DNA of 44,979 bases from Candidatus Kaiserbacteria bacterium (GTDB lineage: Bacteria; Patescibacteriota; Minisyncoccia; Phycocordibacterales; UBA2100), in NCBI GenBank assembly GCA_028286585.1, contig JAQBRI010000002.1:1-44979 (forward strand), written 5' to 3'. Positions 16,243 through 42,191 of this stretch are shown in pieces. The translations under genes and the position numbers were made by a program. The notes under the pieces were generated by a model. It ran no database searches. It saw nothing but the letters and a program-made list of their open reading frames with translations, and had not been told where the DNA came from. Numbering within the stretch: position 1 is the stretch's first letter; each line of letters begins with the position of its first letter.

Positions 16243-16881
16243 TTACACTGCTTTGGTATAGACAACGAGTCGATCAGAATAATTGTGTTCATTTGGTATC
16301 CAACTACCGCTGCAAGTAATCAAATTTAGTTCGCGTTGTCCATTCTCACCTAAAAATATTTGATTAAGCGGCGCCGCGTCATAGGCATACGTCTCGAGTT
16401 TTGTAACAACAAACGAATGTTCAATATTATCGGCATCTTGCACAACGATTCGATCATTTGGTTTCAAATCTTTTAGATGTGCAAATACTGCATCAAGTCC
16501 GAGGCCGTTATCCAAATGCCCAATAATAACTGCCGCGCCAATTTGTCCGGGAACTGTGCCCTTGTTGTACCAGGCAACGGTCTGATATGTCGAAGGCACT
16601 TTCATGTTGCCATTTTTATTTATCCCGACAGATTCTATTGTTGTATCAATTCCGAGCGAAGGAATGCGTAATCTTTGCGGTAGCGCATGCGAAGATGTTG
16701 CCTCTGAGGTTGTGGGAGGCATGATTTCCGCGCCTATTGTGTCGACGCTGAAAGGCAAAAAATAGTGCGCTACCAGATAGCAAAAAAACAACGTTGCGAT
16801 TACACCAACGCACCAGAGCGCGACTTTTGCAGTCGCGCTCTGTGGCATCTTATTTTCTTCATTTTTTTGCGGTGTACGCAT
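16243..16881 (-). CDS. Sortase
   Basis: N-terminal TM; LRIPSLGIDTTIESVGI; GHLDNG (catalytic His) and LITCSGSW...DRLVVYT (catalytic Cys/Arg). Confidence 0.9.
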   Translation of the reverse strand: MRTPQKNEENKMPQSATAKVALWCVGVIATLFFCYLVAHYFLPFSVDTIGAEIMPPTTSEATSSHALPQRLRIPSLGIDTTIESVGINKNGNMKVPSTYQTVAWYNKGTVPGQIGAAVIIGHLDNGLGLDAVFAHLKDLKPNDRIVVQDADNIEHSFVVTKLETYAYDAAPLNQIFLGENGQRELNLITCSGSWIPNEHNYSDRLVVYTKAV

Positions 16882-29304: not shown

Positions 29305-30411
29305 ATGAGCATGACCTACGCAGGCACCGGTGTCAATTATGACGCTATGGACCCTTTCAAACTGATGGCACAGCGTGCTGCACGAGAAACCGCCGGAAAC
29401 ATTACGGAACTCGCCGGCGGCGAGTTCCGGGAATTCGAACCAAGTCGAGGTGAAAGTGTTTACCTGATCGAAACTGCCAGAAGCTACTTCGCTCATGTGG
29501 AGGAAGGGCTCGGCACCAAGAACTTGGTCGCGGACGCAATGTACATACTTACGGGCAAGTCGTACTACGACCAAATCGCACAATGCGCTGTCGCCATGAT
29601 CGTCAACGACATGGTTACACTCGGTGCGTTGCCTCTATCGGTTGCTATGCATCTCGCTGTCGGCACTTCTGATTGGTTCAAGGATGAGAATCGTGCTCGC
29701 GACCTGGTCAACGGCTGGAAAAACGCATGCGATCTGGCACGATGCACGTGGGGTGGGGGCGAGACGCCAACTCTCAAGGGCATAGTTGTTCCGGAAACTG
29801 TCGTTCTTTCTGGTTCGGCGATAGGCATCATCAAACCGAAAGAATGTTTGATTGCTGGTCCGATTCAGTATGGCGATGCAATCGTCATGGTCGAAAGTTC
29901 CGGCATTCATGCGAACGGACTTACATTGGCGCGAGAGATCGCTGGCAAGCTGTCGGAAGGGTATCTCACAAAACTCTCCGATGGCCGGACTTACGGCGAG
30001 ACGCTTCTCGACCCCACGTACGTCTATGTTGGACTCGTCGAAGATTGTCTTGCACGTCGTGGTATCGACATTCACTATGCGGTCAATATCACAGGCCATG
30101 GGTGGCGCAAGCTCATGCGGGCAACACAGCCGTTCACCTACATGATTGATACGCTTCCAACACAGCTTCCGATTTTCGACTTCCTGCAACAGCACGGACC
30201 GGTCGATGACAGGGAAGCATACGGGAACTTCAACATGGGCGCCGGTTTTGCGCTCTACGTGACCGAAGCCTCAACGGCCGAAGTGATTCACGTCGCCAAA
30301 GCACTCGGCTTACGTGCGTTTGTTGCTGGACACATCGAAAATGGCGACAAAAAAGTCGTTATCAAACCAAAGAATCTCGAATACGCCGGCGAGACGCTCG
30401 CAGTTCGTTAA
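29305..30411 (+). CDS. purM: Phosphoribosylformylglycinamidine cyclo-ligase-like (PurM)
   Basis: MTYAGTGVNYDAMDPFKLMAQ, VAMIVNDMVTLGALPL, GDAIVMVESSGIHANGLTLAR, NITGHGWRKLMR; SD aaaggag. Confidence 0.88.
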   Translation: MSMTYAGTGVNYDAMDPFKLMAQRAARETAGNITELAGGEFREFEPSRGESVYLIETARSYFAHVEEGLGTKNLVADAMYILTGKSYYDQIAQCAVAMIVNDMVTLGALPLSVAMHLAVGTSDWFKDENRARDLVNGWKNACDLARCTWGGGETPTLKGIVVPETVVLSGSAIGIIKPKECLIAGPIQYGDAIVMVESSGIHANGLTLAREIAGKLSEGYLTKLSDGRTYGETLLDPTYVYVGLVEDCLARRGIDIHYAVNITGHGWRKLMRATQPFTYMIDTLPTQLPIFDFLQQHGPVDDREAYGNFNMGAGFALYVTEASTAEVIHVAKALGLRAFVAGHIENGDKKVVIKPKNLEYAGETLAVR

Positions 30412-41474: not shown

Positions 41475-42191
41475 ATGATTCACTTTCATATCGTTACATT
41501 ATTTCCTGAATCCATTGATGCGTATTTCAAAGCATCGATTATTAAACGTGCGGTAGAGGGAAAGATGATCAAGATCGATTTTTATAATCCAAGAGATTTT
41601 ACCGCCGAGAAAGATGCCCGAGTTGATCGCCGCCCTTATGGCGGAGGCCCTGGGATGGTGCTTGAGGCAGAGTCTGTATTACTAGCTGTCACAAAGGCGA
41701 TTGGCAAAAATAAGGCGGAGGTGCTTTTCTTTGCAACCGACGGAGAACTATTTGATGAAAATATGGCTCGTGAGCTCGCTCACGAGCCGCGTTTGACGCG
41801 GATGGGAAAAACATCGCGTCAAACGCGATCGAAAAACATTGTAATGATCTGCGGACATTATGAGGGAATCGATGAACGGGTAGTAGAAATACTCAAGGCC
41901 AAAAAGGTTTCGATGGGAAACTATGTTCTCACTGGCGGAGAATTGCCCGCGGCGATTATCGTTGATGCTGTTTCGCGTTTTGTACCGGGAGTACTGGGCA
42001 ACAGTAATTCACTCGAAAATCTTCGAATCACCAAACACAAAAAAGAAGCCGAAAGTATGGCAACAAGTGCCAAGGTCTATACTCGTCCAGAAATTCTAGT
42101 TTGGAAGCGCAAAAAATACCCGGTTCCACCGGTTTTGCTCTCTGGCAATCATGCCGAGATTGAGAAGTGGAAAAAGCAAAAAGATACGTAA
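41475..42191 (+). CDS. trmD: tRNA (guanine-N1)-methyltransferase
   Basis: FHIVTLFPESIDAYFKASIIKRA, DARVDRRPYGGGPGMVLEAE, ICGHYEGIDERV, GNYVLTGGELPAAIIVDAVSRFVPGVLG. Confidence 0.95.
   Translation: MIHFHIVTLFPESIDAYFKASIIKRAVEGKMIKIDFYNPRDFTAEKDARVDRRPYGGGPGMVLEAESVLLAVTKAIGKNKAEVLFFATDGELFDENMARELAHEPRLTRMGKTSRQTRSKNIVMICGHYEGIDERVVEILKAKKVSMGNYVLTGGELPAAIIVDAVSRFVPGVLGNSNSLENLRITKHKKEAESMATSAKVYTRPEILVWKRKKYPVPPVLLSGNHAEIEKWKKQKDT
41765..41827. repeat. Two consecutive palindromes inside trmD (10-bp and 13-bp stems)
   Basis: GGCTCGTGAG-ctcg-CTCACGAGCC (41765-41788); CGCGTTTGACGCG (41788-41800) / CGCGTCAAACGCG (41815-41827). Confidence 0.9.

Follow-up and report, generated by a model that had tools for sequence, protein, structure and literature searches.

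Introduction

In the model established for REPs, a Y1 transposase has single-stranded hairpins as its substrate and acts on them during replication (PMC3116915, PMC6006769). REPs have been described mostly between genes, and the intragenic REPs and Rickettsia palindromic elements (RPEs) on record are known from a restricted number of genomes (PMC3733652). Among them are intragenic REP dimers that encode 20–30 amino acids, tRNA-modification genes being included in their hosts (PMC3116915, PMC3733652). Of the RPEs, the intragenic RPE-4 and RPE-6 count as CGTC-type REPs; RPE-1 is a longer element (PMC3733652). In the literature searched, no paper was found that connects RAYTs (REP-associated tyrosine transposases) with Patescibacteria.

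The window analysed here is a stretch of 44,979 nucleotides from a Candidatus Kaiserbacteria bacterium; it is contig 13 of an 885-kb genome (G000) that is 94% complete and from which stretches amounting to ~314 kb, the window included, were sampled. Its trmD gene contains the arm pair CGCGTTTGACGCG...CGCGTCAAACGCG, a real, lineage-specific palindromic insertion that is in frame, occupies a repeatedly used site and is like an intragenic REP/REPIN rather than an RPE.

Results

The open reading frame that harbours the insertion encodes TrmD, as judged from both a curated model and the fold. It scored 211 bits against TIGR00088 (cut-off 195), and the top PDB match of its AlphaFold model is a TrmD (E 7e-17), yet with a TM-score of only ~0.6. 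Upstream of the gene lie rpsP and a KhpA/B-type KH-domain gene. The nearest named TrmD records, from a contig scan that may omit near relatives, share at most 48% identity with the window protein and belong mostly to Parcubacteria/Paceibacterota lineages. The features of the locus are the following.

41475–42191, + strand: trmD, tRNA (guanine37-N1)-methyltransferase, 238 aa (TIGR00088, structure alignment, PDB match)
41765–41788, no strand: palindrome 1, GGCTCGTGAG-CTCG-CTCACGAGCC; the left arm is conserved MAREL helix codons, the right arm is insert
41783–41830, + strand: approximate in-frame insert HEPRLTRMGKTSRQTR; net +15 aa relative to the 21-aa loop of relatives; AlphaFold coil
41788–41800, + strand: left arm of palindrome 2, itself a mini-hairpin with a 3-nt loop, CCGCGT-ttg-ACGCGG
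41801–41814, + strand: 14-nt spacer GATGGGAAAAACAT separating the arms of palindrome 2
41806–41814, + strand: GAAAAACAT, direct copy of the right host flank within the insert (p ~0.03 under back-translation)
41815–41827, − strand: right arm of palindrome 2, inverted copy, ATCGCGT-caa-ACGCGAT
41831–41839, + strand: GAAAAACAT, host copy, codons of S-K-N-I

Palindrome 1 has a 10-bp stem closed by a CTCG loop; its left arm, which encodes ARE, is host sequence, and its right arm is an inverted copy thereof. The 13-bp arms of palindrome 2 are perfect and 14 nt apart, and the stem reaches ~16 pairs with a 7-nt loop if one bulged G is allowed. Each of the two 13-mers folds as a small hairpin with a 3-nt loop. 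The insert therefore looks like two inverted copies of a small hairpin of the REP/REPIN kind, that is, the inverted doublet of short hairpins by which such elements are recognized, and resembles a REPIN. Fold energies of the region were better than those of 200/200 dinucleotide shuffles (z −6.6 for DNA, −6.5 for RNA). When the insert peptide was back-translated 20,000 times with the codon usage of the genome, a 13-bp stem never occurred (0/20,000), and a stem of at least 10 bp was obtained in 0.33% of the draws. The peptide sequence alone does not force these palindromes.

In the TrmD fold, the segment is a ~45-nt lineage-specific in-frame insertion in the loop that connects the helix MARELA to the strand IVMICGHYEG. 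The stretch from the helix to ICGHYEG comprises 36 aa in the window protein versus 21 aa in most of the genus and family, and the alignment to solved TrmD structures shows a gap at this position. AlphaFold predicts residues 103–119 as coil, between a helix (95–102) and a strand (120–125), with a pLDDT below 50 at residues 112–116; in the model, the segment is a low-confidence coil joining helix and strand. TrmD with the insert presumably remains active. These results agree with the initial annotation, which had described two in-frame palindromes within trmD at 41765–41827 (sequence, coordinates and frame are as given there), a segment ~15 residues longer than in the E. coli protein, its placement in a surface loop and a perfect 13-bp repeat unlikely to arise from protein constraint alone. 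A second insert in the same protein, TKHKKEAESMA (~11 aa; 42030–42062, residues ~186–196), is non-palindromic and absent from every aligned relative.

Among 59 TrmDs of the genus and family, the loop is 21 aa long in most and 27–37 aa long in about ten, and the longer loops of the relatives have unrelated sequences. Perfect palindromes occupy the site in three of these relatives (genomes and loci are designated by G and L numbers): AAAATACAGCAGT-cag-ACTGCTGTATTTT in G012, AATCCTAGAGG-cgaca-CCTCTAGGATT in G039, which has a 5-nt loop and a near-copy in G042, and ACCCACAAGT-ctg-ACTTGTGGGT in G038. Other trmD loops contain further palindromes, examples being an 18-bp perfect stem in G017 and PVRG...SNGA in G048. 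In a TrmD phylogeny computed with the loops removed, in which many inner branches are open, the long-loop label changes 11 times, and at least six of these changes are forced by starred branches. The exact place of the window TrmD on this tree is unsure, as its branch is unusually long. We conclude that, across the genus, insertions have landed again and again in the helix-strand loop of TrmD, which has been lengthened repeatedly and independently. The close homologues thus do not share the segment in non-palindromic form: most are devoid of it, and the long loops carry different inserts. In trmD loop A of L011, L029, L030, L033 and L064, KALRRAQGK or close variants (cccttcgacgagctcaggg) stand in frame in place of KAIGKKK.

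Further genomic copies of the arm pair, which the initial annotation had proposed to search for, were not found: as a pair, the arms are unique in the genome and belong to no repeat family there, dispersed copies being a hallmark of REPs and REPINs. The sole other copy of the 13-mer in the genome lies in a leader, 102 nt upstream of the 23S gene, where 16 bp match (E 0.06). Palindrome 1 has no second copy in the genus, even with up to two mismatches allowed. We also considered CGCGTTTGACGCG as a dispersed genus repeat, with ~30 genus matches versus 4 in reversed controls, but rejected it because the matches are mostly ordinary AFDA/ASNA codons and CGCGTnnnACGCG is not enriched in the window genome (3 versus 3 in the control). 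A matching RAYT was likewise rejected for this 94% complete genome, whose single Y1_Tnp gene is not flanked by window-type hairpins and sits among TGGGGTCAGCCACGATTTA repeats instead. These repeats surround the transposase at L183, positions 1580–2600 (contig 8). Hairpins with the GCGT apex are absent at the RAYT loci of G026, G034, G001, G036, G037 and G010. The foot of the window stem has no GTAG/GTGG or CGTC tetranucleotide, and the apex does not have the RAGG/AAGT pattern found beside most RAYTs of the genus. The trmD of G038 contains its palindromes although Y1_Tnp was not found in that genome; thus, being an orphan does not by itself rule out a REP origin.

Of the 52 genus genomes, 45, including that of the window, encode Y1_Tnp (IS200-like) proteins, a large number of them ~220–260 aa long. 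Seven transposases were scanned; all exceed the Pfam cut-off for Y1_Tnp, and their only NCBIfam match is NF047646 (REP_Tyr_transpos), at 31–57 bits and thus below its cut-off of 80. A palindrome with a 3-nt loop was present at an end of 29/41 RAYT-like genes versus 47/475 control ORFs (Fisher p 8e-18); flanks were examined over 120 nt for the controls and the first 22 RAYT genes, and over 150 nt for the remaining 19. The first 22 genes alone gave 16/22 (p 3e-11). A GTAG, GTGG or CGTC tag is missing from 21 of 25 RAYT-flanking palindromes.

The clearest link between a transposase and trmD is found in G012. Its trmD insert is identical in 29/29 bases to the palindrome upstream of a G012 RAYT, ACAGCAGT, on the other strand (L195). 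This palindrome occurs on both sides of the RAYT, one copy being identical and the other deviating at its outer bases. The core is present four times in G012, five times in G033 and not at all in the other genus genomes searched. Palindromes of the AATCCTAGAGG type flank a RAYT of G017 and are multi-copy and scattered in G017 and G042. On this sequence evidence, RAYT linkage is established for the G012 trmD insert, and we infer it for the window insert. At L200 of G008 (1079–2403), trmD is overlapped at its 3′ end by a RAYT-like gene, and its stop codon TAA forms the loop of an 8-bp palindrome.

Palindromes are not confined to trmD. In the sampled DNA, cores of RAYT flanks lie within 12 ORFs of at least 150 codons. 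In-gene palindromes with a 3-nt loop numbered 26, versus 1.5 in synonymous shuffles; two order-level outgroups showed no clear excess of such palindromes over synonymous shuffles. Transposase action may have moved these palindromes. In-gene and RAYT-flank palindromes of G039 and G017 (L193, L191, L096, L100, L113) share the apex TT-acg-AA, with arms that differ yet pair perfectly. The window itself has a perfect palindrome with a 3-nt loop, CGGAACTCGCC-ggc-GGCGAGTTCCG, at 29405–29429 within an AIR-synthase-related ORF and a perfect 12-bp palindrome at 16814–16842 close to the start of a sortase-domain ORF.

Discussion

The initial annotation had likened the insert to an RPE. An in-frame palindromic insertion into a housekeeping ORF is indeed present, but the RPEs are the wrong family, and sibling copies are missing. 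REP/REPIN elements are the better comparison because what relatives carry at the trmD site are short hairpins, mostly with 3-nt loops, tied to RAYT-like Y1 transposases. The window insert shares with the REP/REPIN–RAYT system its short hairpins, whose inverted doublet forms a longer hairpin, and the link, seen in relatives, to RAYT-like Y1 genes. The genus palindromes differ from it in their 3-nt loops, mostly untagged stems, low-copy families and frequent location in coding DNA, and the window copy differs in having no family in its own genome.

The reading that we favour, with belief and doubt in equal measure, is that the insert is an orphan REP/REPIN-like hairpin pair that arrived by the REP/RAYT route and is tolerated in the loop. 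Its family would then have been lost or would reside in the ~6% of the genome that is missing. Hairpins would be placed in many genes of the genus, and in trmD repeatedly, by RAYT-like Y1 transposases that have 3-nt-loop palindromes of their own; at the transposition step, the Y1 transposase would work on hairpins in single-stranded form as the DNA replicates. An insertion would be lost if it broke the frame, introduced a stop or disturbed the folding of an essential enzyme; in-frame insertions in the flexible helix-strand loop of TrmD would survive selection as extra residues. The TrmD alignments bear out the persistence of loop insertions; the transposition step is inferred. Since different hairpins occupy one trmD site in relatives, and one of them equals transposase-adjacent DNA, mobile hairpins probably rewrite trmD repeatedly. 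The perfect arms point to a recent event, and no active source was seen, which counts against the REP/RAYT reading.

A serious rival, albeit on balance a rather unlikely one, is local template switching, in which the nascent strand folds back and switches strands during replication, leaving inverted copies of neighbouring DNA without any transposase. Quasi-palindrome and template-switch mutations give perfect inverted copies of adjacent sequence, and the window insert has both perfect inverted copies and a direct flank copy. The rival is serious because both host flanks are copied in parts of the insert: conserved host codons make up the left arm of palindrome 1 and are copied in inverted form in its right arm, and the spacer contains the 9-bp direct copy of the right flank. 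Inverted and direct copies of at least 8 bp together occurred in 0.8% of back-translations. The single occurrence of the arm pair in the genome fits this explanation as well. However, the flank-copy statistics are modest when taken individually, and the origin of the 13-mer itself is not accounted for. Neither are the repeated palindromes in the same loop across the genus and the at least one exact RAYT-linked element among them; strand switching gives no reason to expect repeated insertion into one loop, nor copies in relatives that match a transposase-linked element exactly.

We consider it improbable that the insert is a functional RNA hairpin which slows or tunes translation of the trmD message. 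The predicted RNA fold is strong (−46 kcal/mol, with the z-score given above), but it is conserved neither in sequence nor in structure; a hairpin is missing at this position from most relatives, and those of the others are unrelated, so that any such function must be lineage-specific. An RPE or a direct relative of one is scarcely credible. Like RPE-1, RPE-4 and RPE-6, the insert is palindromic, in frame and tolerated by the product of a housekeeping gene; however, RPEs form repeat families, whereas the insert is single-copy, its stem feet have neither a GTAG nor a CGTC tag, and its host belongs to a different phylum. Equally implausible is an ordinary protein loop with palindromy by codon coincidence: the genus does show TrmD loops of varying length, and a second, non-palindromic 11-aa insert exists in the window protein, but the back-translation test refutes coincidence for palindrome 2.

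Returning to the REP/RAYT route, we suggest, tentatively and with somewhat more reserve than conviction, that in this lineage of Patescibacteria, whose genomes are streamlined and gene-dense, tolerant protein loops are inhabited by numerous small RAYT families whose 3-nt-loop palindromes are untagged, that mobile hairpins thereby rewrite essential genes such as trmD in frame time and again, and that the window insert is one such event, later reshaped by strand switching. Different palindromes have entered one loop of an essential enzyme many times, and at least one of them matches an identifiable transposase-linked source. Occupied and empty sites at the trmD loop thereby form a natural series for testing the insertion of hairpin elements, a series that bears on how frame and fold filter hairpins and on how proteins acquire new peptide segments.
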